A stretch of 64,000 nucleotides of DNA from Sulfitobacter sp. S223 (GTDB lineage Bacteria > Pseudomonadota > Alphaproteobacteria > Rhodobacterales > Rhodobacteraceae). The notes under the pieces were generated by a model. It worked only from the letters and a program-made list of their open reading frames with translations. It did not search any database and had not been told where the DNA came from. The stretch spans positions 558,001 through 622,000 of the forward strand of contig NZ_CP083560.1 in the NCBI RefSeq assembly GCF_025143825.1, given 5' to 3'. Position 1 is the first letter of the stretch, and each line of letters starts with the position of its first letter. Positions 22,822 through 44,833 of the stretch are shown here, piece after piece. A program made the translations under genes and the position numbers.

Positions 22822-23060
22822 ACCCTGAGCATGTGTTTTAGCAGAAGAAGCGACAAATCGGATTTTCCAGAGTGTTGTGGGGGGCGGCTACGCGCGCCAC
22901 CTTGGCCGCATTCCAATAGTGGTCATTGCTGGGCGCGCAGGGGACTTTGAGCTAACAAAATGCGTTCAGAACCGTTCGCACATGCAGCTAAGGGCCGGTA
23001 GGAGAACATTTTACCGCGTTTCTGCATCGCGGACACCCTCGGCTTTCACGATGGGGACAA
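22822..23060. other. Non-coding stretch after LysR gene
   Basis: No convincing gene is present here. An ORF in the plus frame from 22877 runs through this stretch and then antisense to the Hint-domain gene; its translation has no recognisable pattern and was discarded. Around 22981-23000 the sequence ATGCAGCTAAGGGCCGG resembles a degenerate element also seen at 18505, 39891 and 41083 (see findings). Confidence 0.4.
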
Positions 23061-23061
23061 T

Positions 23062-23151
23062 ACCGTTCAGCACTCAATTAGGCATTGAGTGGGATTTGTG
23101 GGAGAACCGAACTACGAGGCTTGCGGACGTTCTAAAAACGTCCGTTTTTTT
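23062..23151 (+). ncRNA. Candidate small RNA with two hairpins
   Basis: Two consecutive perfect hairpins lie in a gene-free region: CACTCAAT-TAGGC-ATTGAGTG (23071-23091) and, 33 bases later, an 8-bp stem followed by seven T. The second is an intrinsic terminator reading rightward, yet the nearest upstream rightward gene ends 300 bases before and no ORF leads into it. A short non-coding transcript is the simplest explanation. The 5' end is a guess; I found no strong promoter hexamers. Confidence 0.3.
23124..23151 (+). terminator. Intrinsic terminator, rightward
   Basis: Stem CGGACGTT / AACGTCCG with a five-base loop CTAAA, followed directly by seven T residues (23145-23151). It has no A-run on the left, so it acts only rightward. 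It ends either a long LysR mRNA or an independent small RNA. Confidence 0.75.
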
Positions 23152-23239
23152 GACACGCCACGGGTCCGCTATATGCGTAAATGGACAAAGCTGGCGGCAC
23201 GATGCTCAAACTGGTGGTATATCTGAAAGGGATATTCAC

Positions 23240-24370
23240 TCAGGAATGAAGCCTTGTAACGCGCTGATTAAGACTGGTCCTCCCCTGTGCGTAATGCGCT
23301 GGCGATGGCATTGGAAAATCACCAGTCATCGCCGTTGGGTAGCTTATGGGCAGCTCGCTGGGATCGGGCAGTTCAATGCCTTGCGCAAGGAGGGCACGCC
23401 CCTCTTGGGTGGAAATGAGTGGTAAGCAGGGTGCCTTGCAAATTGGTGCCCAAGCAGCGCGCTCAAGGGATGTTAGCGTCTGCTCAACCATTTCGCCGGG
23501 TAGCAGACTTTCGCTGATTAATCCGCCGCTTTCAATAAGTGCGTGAACCGGTAGGCCAAGATGTACCCAACGCATATGTCGTCGCCCCCTCATGAACCGA
23601 ATACCACGCCAACCAACAAGCGCTTTGGCCGAAAAAAGAAGCAGGCGGCGCTGTTTGCCCACAGCCAATGGGATACGGTGATTGGATGACACAATCAGCG
23701 GCCGGTTGACCCCGGCGCAGTCGATTAGTTTTGATGGGATCAGAACAGGGCGCTGCCTGTCTGGGGTTTTCATGGAATAAGACACTTCCCGGAATCGAAT
23801 TATTCTTAGTTCCTGCAATCCGGCGCTCCACGTGGGAAGCATGGTGCCGGGCTTTAGCATTTCGATGGGAACGCGCCCTTCGAGTGTCCGGATCAGGGTA
23901 CCTTCGGCAAAACAAGCAACATTGCCCGGCGTCAGTGTGCTTGTTACCTCGTAGGTGTCGCCCCTATCGTTGGTGACTAGGCCTGTGCCGTTGCTTGTGG
24001 CAGAGCCCATATACTGGCTGGTCATGCCTGCTGCCGCACCATCTACCGCAGTAAAGGGACCCAAGCCATGTGATACGAATTGCAAAACGCTCCCGCCTGA
24101 GTCTACCAGCGCAATTCCTTCGCCGTCGCCCATTGCGGACGGAAAGTTGACGACCGTATCTTTGCTGAACAGATAGACATCATTTCCAGCGATCGTGGCG
24201 GCAAGGGGAGGGAACGACAGCAAACCATAACTATCTTGGCCGCCTTCCTGATAAAGTTCGAGGGAATACCCTGTTACGTCGGCACCGGCAGGCAGAACCA
24301 CTTCGATGAAGTCGCTTTGCCCGTTCCCTGCGTAGCTGACTTCTGAGATATAAGAGGCGAGTGTTGCCAT
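23240..24370 (-). CDS. Hint-domain (Hedgehog/intein-like) protein with lamin-tail-like N-terminus
   Basis: A 376-aa protein. Residues about 1-120 (ISEVSYAGNGQSDFIEVVLP, GYSLELYQEGG) look like a lamin-tail-type beta-sandwich often found in secreted proteins. Cys153 in CFAEGTLIRT starts a Hint domain, with the autoprocessing histidine candidate in VSSNHRIP (His231) and a C-terminal half through residue about 290. Rhodobacterales encode many such Hint_2 proteins, usually predicted to be extracellular and self-cleaving; no signal peptide is visible, so type I secretion is possible. GGATATTC precedes the ATG. Its true cargo or function is unknown. Confidence 0.78.
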   Translation of the reverse strand: MATLASYISEVSYAGNGQSDFIEVVLPAGADVTGYSLELYQEGGQDSYGLLSFPPLAATIAGNDVYLFSKDTVVNFPSAMGDGEGIALVDSGGSVLQFVSHGLGPFTAVDGAAAGMTSQYMGSATSNGTGLVTNDRGDTYEVTSTLTPGNVACFAEGTLIRTLEGRVPIEMLKPGTMLPTWSAGLQELRIIRFREVSYSMKTPDRQRPVLIPSKLIDCAGVNRPLIVSSNHRIPLAVGKQRRLLLFSAKALVGWRGIRFMRGRRHMRWVHLGLPVHALIESGGLISESLLPGEMVEQTLTSLERAAWAPICKAPCLPLISTQEGRALLAQGIELPDPSELPISYPTAMTGDFPMPSPAHYAQGRTSLNQRVTRLHS

Positions 24371-24419
24371 ATAGAATATCCGTCATAACCCGCCTATGGC
24401 ATAGACTGGAAAGACTGAA

Positions 24420-24596
24420 TTAATTGTAAACCGGCGTAGAATGCTGCTCCAGCACCAGACGTTCAAGAAAGACCTGTTTGTTGAACGGCGGTCCTGAAAC
24501 AAACATTTGTGCTTGTCCTGCAACCTGCCGTTTTGTCCGCATAGCGGTCGTCGAAGTTTGGGGTATGAATGGCGGCTTTTTTCGCATGTCTGACAT
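24420..24596 (-). CDS. Possible small protein (58 aa)
   Basis: A short frame starting MSDMRKKPPFIPQTSTTAM, preceded by ACGGAAAA, ends VLEQHSTPVYN. It is basic and proline-containing with no hydrophobic segment. It fills the gap between the Hint-domain gene and the etf terminator, but another overlapping frame is also open there. There is no family recognition, so this is a weak call; the region may simply be non-coding. Confidence 0.22.
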   Translation of the reverse strand: MSDMRKKPPFIPQTSTTAMRTKRQVAGQAQMFVSGPPFNKQVFLERLVLEQHSTPVYN

Positions 24597-39236: not shown

Positions 39237-39770
39237 ATGGCAAAAAGGTGGTATTCGGTCAGCGTCCTGTCGAACTTTGAGAAAAAGATCGCCGAGCAGA
39301 TTCGCAACACGGTTGCTGAGCAAGAGCTTGAGGACCAGATCGACGAAGTACTTGTGCCCACGGAAGAAGTGATTGAGATTCGTCGCGGCAAGAAAGTCAC
39401 GACCGAGCGTCGCTTTATGCCGGGCTATGTGCTGGTTCACATGGAAATGTCCGATCGTGGCTATCACCTGATCAACTCGATCAACCGCGTCACAGGCTTC
39501 TTGGGCCCACAGGGCCGCCCGATGCCAATGCGCGATGCAGAAGTCACCGCGATCCTTGGTCGTGTTCAAGAGGGTGAAGAAGCGCCTCGAACGCTTATCC
39601 ACTTCGAGATTGGTGAAAAGGTCAAAGTTGCAGACGGTCCGTTCGAAGACTTCGATGGCATGGTCGAGCAGGTGGACGAAGACAACCAGAAGCTCAAAGT
39701 TATGGTGTCCATCTTTGGCCGCGAAACACCCGTCGAACTGGACTTCACTCAGGTGAACAAGCAGGTTTAA
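39237..39770 (+). CDS. nusG: Transcription termination/antitermination protein NusG
   Basis: RNA polymerase-associated factor that couples transcription with translation and Rho. The 177-aa protein starts MAKRWYSVSVLSNFEKKIAEQ; the longer frame lacks a site. The NGN domain ends around residue 115 (MPGYVLVHMEMSDRGYHLINS, FLG) and the KOW domain is at the C-terminus (GEKVKVADGPFEDFDGMVEQVDEDN). The start has AAGGACGG upstream. In most bacteria rplK follows directly; here 1.5 kb including an orphan gene intervenes. Confidence 0.96.
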   Translation: MAKRWYSVSVLSNFEKKIAEQIRNTVAEQELEDQIDEVLVPTEEVIEIRRGKKVTTERRFMPGYVLVHMEMSDRGYHLINSINRVTGFLGPQGRPMPMRDAEVTAILGRVQEGEEAPRTLIHFEIGEKVKVADGPFEDFDGMVEQVDEDNQKLKVMVSIFGRETPVELDFTQVNKQV

Positions 39771-39805
39771 TTACCTCGGCACGTTCCGAACGCAAAATAA
39801 CATTT

Positions 39806-39842
39806 GATGGCGTTACCTTTTGCGAGGTGACGCCATTCTCTA
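39806..39842 (+). terminator. Probable terminator after nusG
   Basis: GATGGCGTTACC and GGTGACGCCATT form a 12-pair stem with two wobble pairs and an eight-base loop, 36 bases after the nusG stop, followed by CTCTATTTTG. The T-tract is interrupted, so termination may be partial. Confidence 0.5.
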
Positions 39843-40048
39843 TTTTGTCGATTGATCAACGGCCTTGGTTCACGGTTTGTGAAAGTCAAAGTCCGCTGAG
39901 CGGAGCTTACTGCCTTTCGCTGCATGTACGTCTATGGCCGGTTTGGTGAGCCGTTCAGCAAACGGTCGTTTTTGAAACGGTGTGAATTGTGAATAGTCTG
40001 CGAGACAAAATGTAGATCAAGGCGGGAAGTTTCTGATAAACTGAAAAA

Positions 40049-40915
40049 ATGAAAAATAATAAGTTAAAACCCACGCAAGCGGCGCAGCACAGAAGAGGGG
40101 CTGCCGCCGAATGTGAGCAAGAGAACCGCTTGCAGAGTTTGAACTCCGAAGACGTTATTTATTGGACGGAAGTGGTGAAGGCAGTGGCGGCAGTTATCCC
40201 CACAATTGCTAAGCCAAAGCGAACGTGTTCCTACCACGCTTGGTCAAGCCTTCTAAATGAGTATTGCGGCAACCCACCTTCTGTAGGTATCGCGCCAGAC
40301 TATCCGACAAATATGTCCTCAAGGTTGATGAGCTTTGCGGAAGATGTTGCGAAACCGGGCTGGCCTGAGCCAATAAGCGACTTAATCGAGTTCGCTTTGG
40401 CTTTTCTTGAAGCCGACGTCATGTTGTTCCGATCAGGTTATACAAAACGTCATTTAGTCAAACGTTTGCAGCAATCTCCGTTGTCGCCGGACCATATTAT
40501 CAGAATTGATCGTTTGTTACGCCGGGCAGTCACCAATGGCACTGGGTTAGAAGAATTCCGCGGTTACCGTAGACTTGCTGCACATCTCGTAGTTAGTGGG
40601 GCGCTTCCAGATCTGCCGACATGGCTAGCCGAGAAAGCGCACTGCGCAATACGGACTGTCGACAGGGCTGAGGGAGAATTATTTGCCGATTTGATGTCAG
40701 ATACTGCCATGTCGGACGCCGATAGAGATCGTGTAACGAAATCGACGTTCTTTGGACGCTTCAAGTGGGGTATGAGTTTCTCGGACTTGTTGGTTGCAGT
40801 TCCTGCGGGCAAGCTAACCGACGAAGATGCGTCTAGAACCAAAGACAATGCATACTTGATGCTGCGTTCGATCCAGCAACGACAATTCTCCGAACGGAAA
40901 ACAAGAGGGTGCTGA
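40049..40915 (+). CDS. Orphan protein of unknown function between nusG and rplK
   Basis: A 288-aa protein I cannot place in a family. It has a lysine-rich AT-rich start (MKNNKLKPTQAAQH) with no clear ribosome binding site, no membrane segment and no obvious catalytic motif. The middle (LIEFALAFLEADVMLFRSGYTKRHLVKRL; FRGYRRLAAHLVVSGALPDLPTWLAEKA) is probably helical. Codon use and base composition look more AT-rich than the flanking ribosomal genes. It interrupts a normally tight nusG-rplK junction and is flanked by degenerate intergenic sequence, suggesting acquisition. It could be a phage- or defence-derived protein, but nothing shows that directly. Confidence 0.6.
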   Translation: MKNNKLKPTQAAQHRRGAAAECEQENRLQSLNSEDVIYWTEVVKAVAAVIPTIAKPKRTCSYHAWSSLLNEYCGNPPSVGIAPDYPTNMSSRLMSFAEDVAKPGWPEPISDLIEFALAFLEADVMLFRSGYTKRHLVKRLQQSPLSPDHIIRIDRLLRRAVTNGTGLEEFRGYRRLAAHLVVSGALPDLPTWLAEKAHCAIRTVDRAEGELFADLMSDTAMSDADRDRVTKSTFFGRFKWGMSFSDLLVAVPAGKLTDEDASRTKDNAYLMLRSIQQRQFSERKTRGC

Positions 40916-41312
40916 CATTCTAGGGTCTTGGCTGAATATCCGTTAAATGCACTTACTCACCATCTGATACATTCTAAAACCCTCCCTTTGGGCCAAGGTT
41001 TAAACTACCCCGATCGATGCTACCAAAAAACTCCGTTCAAAACCTAAGCCGCTGTTGAAGGCTTCGGGCTGTTCGGCGATAGCGTTCATTCGCTGCATTG
41101 CACAAAAGCGGTAACATGGGCTCAGAGCAGACGTTCGAAGGACTGCCTCTAACCATCGCTTGCATTATCAACCCTACATGCGCTATGCGACCCAAGTTGC
41201 CTTAAGGGGTGATTCACATCGTGGGAGGCGAGGGTGCCGCGGCATCCGGACCATAACCGCGCAACACATATCCCGAGGGTCGCGTCCTGAGGGTGTTGAA
41301 AGGAGAGCCATC
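40916..41312. other. Gene-free stretch upstream of rplK
   Basis: About 400 bases. A degenerate element (41083-41140) resembling sequences at 39891 (opposite orientation) and 18505 is present. A ribosome binding site AAGGAGAG precedes rplK. The rplK promoter should be here, but no defensible hexamer pair was found. Confidence 0.4.
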
Positions 41313-41738
41313 ATGGCCAAGAAACTCGTCGGTACGATGAAGTTGCAAGTTAAAGCGGGTCAAGCAAACCCGTCCCCGCCCGTCGGTCCAGCATTGGGTC
41401 AGCGCGGCATCAACATCATGGAATTCTGCAAGGCGTTCAACGCCAAGACAGCGGACATGGAGCCTGGTGCACCTTGCCCGACCATCATCAGCTATTATCA
41501 GGACAAGTCCTTCACGATGGACATCAAGACCCCTCCAGCGTCTCACTACCTGAAAAAAGCGGCTAAAGTTAACTCCGGCGCCAAAACGCCAAGCCGTGAG
41601 ACCGTTGGCACAATCACGCCCAAGCAGCTGCGCGAAATCGCAGAAGCGAAAATGGCTGATTTGTCCGCGAACGACGTCGAACAGGCGATGAAAATCATTT
41701 TGGGCTCCGCAAAGTCCATGGGCATCGAGGTTAAGTAA
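41313..41738 (+). CDS. rplK: 50S ribosomal protein L11
   Basis: L11 forms the GTPase-associated centre with 23S rRNA and the L10/L12 stalk. The 141-aa protein starts [21 protein letters not shown] with AAGGAGAG upstream; the longer frame is not family-like. Conserved features are [22 protein letters not shown], the proline-rich N-terminal domain, and [16 protein letters not shown] in the RNA-binding C-terminal domain. It is one base from rplA, with which it forms an operon. Confidence 0.98.
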
Positions 41739-42438: not shown

Positions 42439-42464
42439 GCTGCTTAAGCAGACTTGAGTTTGAG

Positions 42465-42491
42465 AGGGCGCTCCATCGGGGCGCCCTTTTC
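42465..42491 (+). terminator. Intrinsic terminator of rplK-rplA
   Basis: Stem AGGGCGCTCC / GGGGCGCCCT (ten pairs, one wobble) with a three-base loop, followed by TTTTCTT, 27 bases after the rplA stop. Confidence 0.85.
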
Positions 42492-42508
42492 TTGTCGCGA
42501 GGTCAATT

Positions 42509-42538
42509 TTGACAATTCAACAGCGCTGCCCGTAATCT
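42509..42538 (+). promoter_or_regulatory. Candidate promoter of the fatty-acid hydroxylase gene
   Basis: A consensus -35 TTGACA (42509-42514) is followed 18 bases later by TAATCT (42533-42538), 24 bases before the start codon and just after the rplA terminator. The -10 is a partial match. Confidence 0.35.
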
Positions 42539-42561
42539 TTGACGTGGATGGAGGAGTGGCG

Positions 42562-43287
42562 ATGCAAAGACTAAGAATAATGTTCTCCCATGCGAGCGTA
42601 TGCTTCATGGCGATCGCTGCCCTGTTTGGTCTGGCTGTAATGATTATATCCGCCCCATGGTGGGCCTGGCTGCTTATCCCGCTAGGATTCGTTGCGCAGA
42701 TGTTGAACGAATACAATCTGCACAGATTTATCTTTCATTTGCCTCCGCCGTCGCGCCAGTGGGCTTTTGATTTGCTCTATCAGGCTCATTACGGGCACCA
42801 TGATTTTCCGACCAATCACAAACTCTTCTTTGTGCCGATCTGGATTGCTCTGCCCATTCTGTTTATCAATTTCGGCTTGGTATGGGGGGCAGCGGTTTTG
42901 TTTGGATGGCCCGCACCGTTTCATATAGCTACCGCCATTGTTCTGGTCGGGGGCGTGCTGATGTTCTTGGGGTATGAGTGGTTTCACATGACATCGCATC
43001 TAAATATCCCCAAAACGAAGGTAGAGCGCCATGTGACAACGCTCCATAATCAACATCACTTCCGTGATTTTTCGAAATGGTTTCACGTCAGTCCGGGCGG
43101 CGAGGTGATCGACCGGGCGATGAAAACAGCGATTGATCGCGATGCACTAAAGAATAAGCAGCGGGGTGAATTTATGCGCACACTTGGGTTGCAGCCGGAT
43201 GACCCCCGTCTGGTTTCCGCTCGGTCGAGGTTTTCCAGCAAATATAACTTGTCTCAAGATGAAGTTTCCCGCGCCGCCATGACTTGA
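42562..43287 (+). CDS. Fatty-acid hydroxylase / sterol-desaturase family membrane protein
   Basis: A 241-aa integral-membrane di-iron oxygenase of the fatty-acid hydroxylase superfamily. The ATG at 42562 has GGAGGAG upstream, which decides the start. Histidine clusters that would bind iron are NLHRFIFH, AHYGHHDF, WFHMTSH and HNQHHFRDF, separated by membrane helices (ASVCFMAIAALFGLAVMII; ATAIVLVGGVLMFLGYEW). The family hydroxylates or desaturates lipids, carotenoids or sterols; the substrate is unknown. It splits rplKA from rplJL and has its own candidate promoter. Confidence 0.85.
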   Translation: MQRLRIMFSHASVCFMAIAALFGLAVMIISAPWWAWLLIPLGFVAQMLNEYNLHRFIFHLPPPSRQWAFDLLYQAHYGHHDFPTNHKLFFVPIWIALPILFINFGLVWGAAVLFGWPAPFHIATAIVLVGGVLMFLGYEWFHMTSHLNIPKTKVERHVTTLHNQHHFRDFSKWFHVSPGGEVIDRAMKTAIDRDALKNKQRGEFMRTLGLQPDDPRLVSARSRFSSKYNLSQDEVSRAAMT

Positions 43288-44660: not shown

Positions 44661-44833
44661 CCTATCTTGGAAGGCGCTTACGTAAACAAGCGTCTCTCTG
44701 GATAGGTCCATTGGTCGGAAGGGGTGCGGTGGGACGCGCTCCAGCATAGACCGGACTTAGCCGCTCTTATGGGTGTGCATCGCGGCCCCGGCGATGGCGC
44801 ATTCGGCAAGAGACACGAAAGGTGACACGACAC

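Follow-up and report, generated by a model that had tools for sequence, protein, structure and literature searches.

The gene P0001, which separates nusG from rplK in Sulfitobacter sp. S223, is probably the cargo of a site-specific gene cassette that is exchanged at site I of a res site by a serine recombinase acting in trans. The sequences bordering the gene are the two ends of a recurring cassette, and these ends are paired in one orientation around unrelated, mostly single genes. The right border would be a res-type site, consisting of a crossover site I and predicted accessory sites II and III, and the left border would be a single palindrome resembling site I. The candidate enzyme, which would exchange DNA between the left site and site I, is a small serine recombinase of the invertase/resolvase type whose gene, in members of the same genus, lies directly behind a res of this kind. 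In this way a gene could be removed from, added to or replaced in a res platform, in a manner resembling the use of attI and attC by integrons: the recombinase would join, in trans, site I of the platform with the single site of a cassette, to give the order left site, cargo, site I-II-III. That this recombinase performs the exchange, and that a circular cassette is the intermediate, is what we infer from the arrangement. The features of the locus are collected in Table 1; the window is the whole stretch of 64,000 nucleotides that was analyzed (NZ_CP083560.1, positions 558,001 to 622,000).

Table 1. Features of the P0001 cassette, its surroundings and the second cassette, in window coordinates
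Feature	Position	Strand	Basis
nusG, upstream neighbor	39240..39770	+	ORF and synteny in the genus
Intrinsic terminator after nusG, upstream of the cassette	39806..39837	+	14-pair stem and T tail
Left end of cassette (outer part and site L)	39889..39974	+	Model R2, 79.8 bits; copy in the model's alignment
Site L, 26-bp imperfect palindrome, crossover-like, core GT	39953..39978	+	Site matrix, 38.9 bits; among the sites that built the matrix
Cargo gene P0001, 288 aa, ARM/HEAT-like helical repeat protein	40049..40915	+	ORF, homologs, AlphaFold2 pLDDT 86.9
Right site I, degenerate	40970..40995	+	Site matrix, 18.0 bits
Right end, res-like (site I, spacer, II/III)	40972..41068	+	Model R1, 70.6 bits; copy in the model's alignment
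Right outer repeat of cassette	41069..41137	+	DNA match of 40976-41137 to other cassettes
Promoter-like motif of rplK, TTGCAT-17-CTATGC, downstream of the cassette	41160..41188	+	By eye
rplK, downstream neighbor	41313..41738	+	ORF and synteny in the genus
Second window cassette, left end	24465..24550	-	Model R2, 32.9 bits
Second window cassette, cargo, 376-aa Hint-domain protein	23240..24370	-	PF13403, E 4.7e-25
Second window cassette, decayed res	23060..23149	-	Model R1, 30 bits

The gap of 1.5 kb with a 288-aa ORF given in the preliminary description measures 1,542 bp, and P0001 is the sole long plus-strand ORF within it. The accompanying premise that nusG and rplK are usually adjacent holds for part of the genus but not for the rest, as 19 of 37 measured junctions, a set chosen so that long gaps were included, are at least 782 bp long and the longest reaches 12.1 kb. 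The terminator after nusG has a predicted RNA fold of -21.5 kcal/mol (z -5.9), and a similar hairpin occupies the same position in the relative G016. The motif before rplK is likewise common to the window and G016, although a consensus promoter scan does not call it; rplK, whose possession of a promoter of its own had been queried, thus keeps a promoter-like motif downstream of the insert. Lying between the terminator and this motif, the insert should therefore do little harm. That P0001 was inserted is supported by its absence from all 57 other sampled Sulfitobacter genomes, and conservation of the ORF at this place across the order, which would speak for a long-standing resident, was not seen: in a class-wide sample of 385 genomes only its own genome has the gene.

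Long nusG-rplK gaps in other species (L044-L062) contain genes that are unrelated by eye, namely a chemotaxis receptor, a cation antiporter, a TRAP transporter and a serine hydrolase, and the gap of genome G042 holds a 12-kb block. We discarded the view that only these cassettes use the junction as a hotspot, because most long gaps contain other genes. BLAST of the cassette ends against the 37 junctions found pieces in L054 and L045 only, and models R1 and R2 run on 23 junction loci gave only weak or partial additional matches. A strong res lies upstream of rplK in G056, on a broken contig; a candidate res inside the G042 gap was rejected, as its coordinates place it beyond rplA. Within the window, a fatty-acid-hydroxylase-like ORF (42454-43287, plus strand) lies between rplA and rplJ, and an ORF that is similar by eye is found in the nusG-rplK gap of G019 (L048), which suggests that the ribosomal cluster acquires extra genes at more than one gap. 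A Rhodo-rpoB RNA (RF03074, 58.3 bits) is present at 44712-44801 on the plus strand.

The low GC noted at the outset for P0001 is reproduced. In 500-bp steps, GC is 0.48-0.50 over the gene versus 0.51-0.55 over nusG and rplK/rplA (it is also low, 0.50, at the ORF 42454-43287); GC3 is 0.51 versus 0.61 for the 49 long ORFs of the window; and the codon-adaptation index, computed on the same 49 ORFs, is 0.619, the lowest of them all, with a median of 0.736. As also remarked before, no Shine-Dalgarno sequence is visible by eye in front of the ATG at 40049. The gene is nevertheless not the orphan it was taken for: other Rhodobacteraceae genera have homologs with as much as 52% identity, and weaker, partial relatives occur in the Rhizobiales and beyond. 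It was found in 5 other genomes of a family sample of 394, one of the five being weak, and a pattern scan of named genomes gave 28 loci. The closest are in a Loktanella MAG (52%; L092, with two stops in the translated stretch), Palleronia pontilimi (49%) and Marimonas arenosa (44%), followed by Silicimonas, Candidatus Rhodobacter lobularis and Lentibacter (30%); about 20 weaker, partial relatives in Rhizobiales, Gammaproteobacteria and others are grouped around the motif FLEAD..FRSGY.K. Homologs elsewhere occupy other genomic neighborhoods: those at L086 and L098 adjoin genes that we take from their translations to be xth-like and trx-like, and those at L084 and L094 lie between presumed HpcH-like and DgcN-like genes. 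An FAD_binding_4 oxidase gene adjoins the homologs in three genomes (L085-L087), and a similar oxidase ORF, judged by eye, is present in the S223 genome itself (L144:2074-4850) beside PF00239 genes and a partial res.

The AlphaFold2 model of P0001 is a confident all-helical repeat, and judging from it the protein would most likely be a protein-binding scaffold of the ARM/HEAT-like type. Foldseek returned no match to the model at E <= 0.001, and the best VIA match was MO25 (Z 8.2, rmsd 3.5, 153 residues), within a range that is common for helical models. Searches of Pfam, NCBIfam and PADLOC gave no match at E <= 1, the PHROG search gave two chance-level matches only (0.17 and 0.31), and no homolog was found in phages. 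The only match on a plasmid is a weak one from Sinorhizobium RAC02 (28.5% across 48% of the protein length). Its neighbors SMI1/KNR4 and DUF1963 hinted at a role in defense or immunity, which is unsupported by PADLOC or by the other neighborhoods that were read.

The left end of the cassette is approximately 86 bp long and closes in a 26-bp imperfect palindrome with the consensus GTTCAACAAACGGTCGTTTTTGGAAG. The right end opens with a similar palindrome (GTTCCAAAAACGCTCCTTTTTGGCAC) and continues for approximately 73 bp, so that the res-like site is approximately 99 bp in total; its site I is clearly palindromic, and the putative sites II and III were assigned by eye, in A2. The borders had been described as related and oppositely oriented, and both statements stand. 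For the originally recognized stretches (39891-39924 and 41083-41140), the inverted local alignment score is 11 versus a shuffle mean of 6.3 and is reached in 2 of 500 shuffles, and the direct score of 9 is reached in 22 of 500. With wider ends (39881-39990 and 40961-41150) the inverted score is 19 versus 9.5, reached in none of 500 shuffles, and the direct score of 11 is reached in 62 of 500. The borders are not special to this locus, however, but are the ends of a cassette family that extends through much of the genus and into other genera. When the S223 genome was searched at the DNA level, both recurred 1.1 Mb away, flanking another gene with order and orientation unchanged. Across the family, the ends are inversely similar at the 5% level in 13 of 29 cassettes and directly similar in 4 of 29 (this set, used also for the identity and GC comparisons, includes the two window cassettes and leaves out L121 and L122, which are copies of L120, and two empty platforms).

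The right-end model R1 matches 142 places in 37 of 58 genus genomes, with up to 18 per genome, among the matches listed. In the same 58 genomes, and again among the matches listed, 68 left ends extend to site L; of these, 38 have a res no more than 5 kb away and 30 do not, the counts omitting R2 rows that end before model position 82, which are mostly general repeat. The nearest res to these 38 left ends is downstream on the same strand in 36 cases, upstream and weak in one and on the opposite strand in one, where chance would give roughly 0.0015 for each pairing. Eleven of the 36 same-strand pairs contributed at least one end to the model alignments or are duplicates of identical sequence, and the count is therefore not fully independent. 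For this reason polarity was tested on the res loci of the family sample, in which res occurs in 45 of 295 genomes. Taking one locus per genome from other genera (29 of the 45 genomes with a match), a further palindrome is found within 1.5 kb on the site-I side in 14 and on the other side in none (sign test, 0.00012), with 15 lacking a partner site. The fetched genus loci have the partner palindrome on the site-I side in 36 of 52 res copies, many of these palindromes having served to build the site matrix, and 16 have none; the other side has 10 palindromes, all of them part of second res copies or of a neighboring cassette.

Cargo was extracted by pairing left ends with fetched loci only, and 31 of the 33 end pairs enclose cargo, from 214 bp to 4.5 kb. 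In 23 of 29 cassettes the longest ORF takes up at least 60% of the cargo, and this ORF runs along the cassette in 13 of 29 and against it in 16 of 29 (here the two window cassettes are excluded and the copies included). Cargo GC is lower than that of the flanks in 24 of 29 cassettes, with a median difference of -0.052. Pfam names assigned to the cargo are Hint, MFS, DUF421, ThiC, Peptidase S58, DUF4062, NYN RNase, HPP-CBS, DUF1275, YHYH, MarR, SNase and MacB; some of the cargos searched have none, and no transposase gene is present among the cargo ORFs looked at. Two pairs are empty platforms, where a single palindrome is the overlap of left end and res (L185, 42.5 bits, and, as a weak case, L137, 22.1 bits), and the S223 locus L007 has three palindromes in series with small ORFs between them. 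The second cassette of the window is decayed (23060-24550, minus strand) and lies between LysR-like and electron-transfer-flavoprotein-like genes, as judged by eye. A thiC cassette in G005 is 100% identical over 4,352 bp to the Dinoroseobacter shibae plasmid pDSHI01, and L120, L121, L122 and L218 are mutually 100% identical over 2.7-5.0 kb; each of these sets therefore represents one plasmid lineage and not independent transfers.

The recombinase encoded at L127 matches PF00239 (E 6.8e-48) and the resolvase helix-turn-helix family PF02796 (E 4.4e-6), and with a resolvase catalytic domain and a C-terminal HTH it belongs to the small serine recombinases. Its best solved relatives are DNA-invertases (4m6f, E 2.9e-44, and 3uj3), which we take to be Gin, followed by gamma-delta resolvase. 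With a threshold of E <= 1e-40, 19 of the 58 genus genomes contain it. At 9 of the 22 places listed a res lies directly upstream of the recombinase gene, six of them strong (59-94 bits) and three weak (22-23 bits), an arrangement that corresponds to the layout of resolvase res systems as described in PMC12217951. At L125 and L127 the right end of a cassette is immediately followed by the recombinase gene. L125 and L200 are plasmid-like contigs of approximately 5 kb with a replication-type gene (by translation), and res is also present on a 5.9-kb Sulfitobacter plasmid. The recombinase and an HTH-type gene are found between two inverted res at L125:2690-3940, L197:2210-3534 and L198:2268-3572, the last of these modules being flanked by apparent ilvD and catalase genes. 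On pTHAF37_a (L223:5001-8711), TniQ/TniB/TniA-type genes start approximately 0.2 kb from a cassette res, as expected of res hunters; res-hunting transposons (PMC12217951) are relatives in kind. Three Dinoroseobacter shibae plasmids (L215, L246 and L247) carry a block of AAA ATPase, Mu-type transposase, recombinase, thiC and res.

The S223 genome contains no close copy of the recombinase. What it does have is a decayed recombinase fragment together with two intact PF00239 genes that are more distantly related. One of these is on a contig of plasmid size and is not preceded by this res; the other is chromosomal, starting approximately 185 bp beyond a partial res and adjoining the decayed fragment. 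The right site I of the P0001 cassette scores 18.0 bits, where most sites scored exceed 24. Because this site is degenerate and the genome is without a close copy of the recombinase, the cassette beside rplK is probably stranded.

Four comparisons between loci place the switches of sequence identity at the sites. The pairs come from an all-versus-all comparison of the fetched cassette loci and from the comparison of L006 with L119. L135 and L210 correspond to one locus in two species, with flanks 78.8% and 77.8% identical, 22 of 24 positions shared in the left site and 71.1% identity in res, and cargo at 40.2%, which is the level of an unrelated pair (40.1%). In L213 and L251, from two genera, the cargo is 95.4% identical, res 74.2% and the flanks 45.1% and 43.0%. 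The S223 locus L006 shares with L119 a unit that is 99.7% identical, with res at 77.0% and the left flank at 41.7%; with L182 it shares res (82.2%) and the right flank (85.2%), and the identity falls to 42.7% left of site I. L006 is therefore a chimera joined in site I.

A different account of the same arrangement is that the cassettes are non-autonomous transposons of MITE- or TIME-like type, with terminal inverted repeats and a transposase in trans, and that res is a passenger that resolves cointegrates. We regard this as unlikely, though it survives better than the other alternatives. It would explain why the window ends are inverted copies of each other, as are the ends of 13 of 29 cassettes at the 5% level, and why the unit common to L006 and L119 starts 53 bp outside the left 26-bp site. 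A published precedent exists in the Tn3-derived TIMEs (TIME-COMP, TIME-RES), which are also non-autonomous, with inverted ends, cargo and in some cases res; PMC4133298 gives them 38-bp Tn3 inverted repeats and 5-6 bp target duplications. The cassettes differ in that no Tn3-type repeat was recognized by eye and exchange takes place at the site. The breakpoints in L135/L210, L213/L251 and L006/L182 lie at the sites and not at the outer ends, 16 of the 29 cassettes have no inverted similarity at the 5% level, and no transposase gene was seen among the cargo ORFs that were inspected. Empty targets lacking a platform were not found.

Homologous recombination between dispersed res repeats, with res serving as passive homology while adjacent DNA is swapped, is less probable still. 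The repeats are numerous enough to make it conceivable, but they are only approximately 100 bp long and 71-82% alike in the compared pairs, which is too little for efficient RecA exchange. Moreover, exchange respects the 26-bp left site in L135/L210 and L213/L251, and the partner sites are on one side only. It is very improbable that P0001 is an old resident lost in relatives and flanked by decayed, immobile intergenic repeats: the core-type genes beside its homologs in other genera and the resemblance of the outer parts to common intergenic repeats (partial R2 matches) would suit such a history, but the gene is absent from every other sampled genome of the genus, its codon adaptation is the lowest of the 49 ORFs, and its ends match paired ends around unrelated genes elsewhere.

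Several observations also count against exchange by a serine recombinase at site I. The central dinucleotide of the left sites is mostly GT (G in 31 and T in 27 of 33), and that of the right sites is mostly CT (C in 22 and T in 28 of 30, three poor right sites having been dropped). Resolvases are expected to need equal core dinucleotides in partner sites, and as the two cores are not shared, the sites are best said to work like a resolvase crossover pair without being a proven member of that class. The 53-bp offset in L006/L119, the inverted ends of some cassettes, which would also fit a transposon, the lack of a close recombinase copy in the S223 genome, the left ends without a nearby res, the partnerless res copies in the genus and in other genera, and the presence of res at only 9 of the 22 recombinase places point in the same direction.

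Like integron cassettes, these are mostly single genes lying between recombination sites, one type of site being complex (res, comparable to attI) and the other simple; several stand in a row in L007; and at L125 and L127 cargo with a single site adjoins a res that abuts the recombinase gene. They differ in that the sites here are palindromes of 26 bp and the candidate enzyme is a small serine recombinase, whereas integrons use a folded attC and a tyrosine integrase; cargo here lies on either strand, and the cassettes are mostly single and scattered. The enzyme beside res is of the serine type (PF00239), whereas an integron has a tyrosine IntI beside attI. The recombinase belongs to the same protein family as the Gin/Hin invertases and the gamma-delta/Tn3 resolvases, which invert phage or phase-variation segments or resolve cointegrates. 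We know of no role for these enzymes in moving gene cassettes; the swapping of cassettes at a fixed site is known for tyrosine recombinases, in integrons and pdif modules. The pdif modules (XerC/XerD) are also small gene modules between recombination sites that are moved in trans; they use dif-like sites and tyrosine recombinases, in contrast to the serine recombinase and longer res described here. A further parallel is found in Acinetobacter plasmids carrying CinH-RS2, where a serine resolvase recombines its own and foreign res sites and thereby reshuffles segments (PMC9501444, which cites Kholodii 2001). The cassettes differ from that shuffling in being a small, recurring unit that has a lone left site and a complete res on the right; this res is present in 37 of the 58 genus genomes and in 45 of the 295 genomes of the family sample. 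A search of titles and abstracts in the open-access literature found no description of such cassettes.

It is conceivable, although we hold this broader proposal only tentatively, that the Rhodobacteraceae possess a serine-recombinase counterpart of the integron, in which circular single-gene cassettes with one simple site would move into and out of res platforms through Gin-like recombinases supplied in trans, often from small plasmids. If true, it would be a second, chemically unrelated route to gene-cassette capture, through which genes spread among chromosomes and plasmids in marine bacteria. Were such a serine-recombinase system common in a marine family, accessory genes (in this case thiC, a peptidase, a nuclease, membrane proteins and genes of unknown function) would have an additional way of reaching chromosomes and plasmids. 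The system could explain some of the strange single genes found in gaps of conserved operons, such as the one between nusG and rplK, and the res model provides a handle for the bulk discovery of unknown accessory genes.
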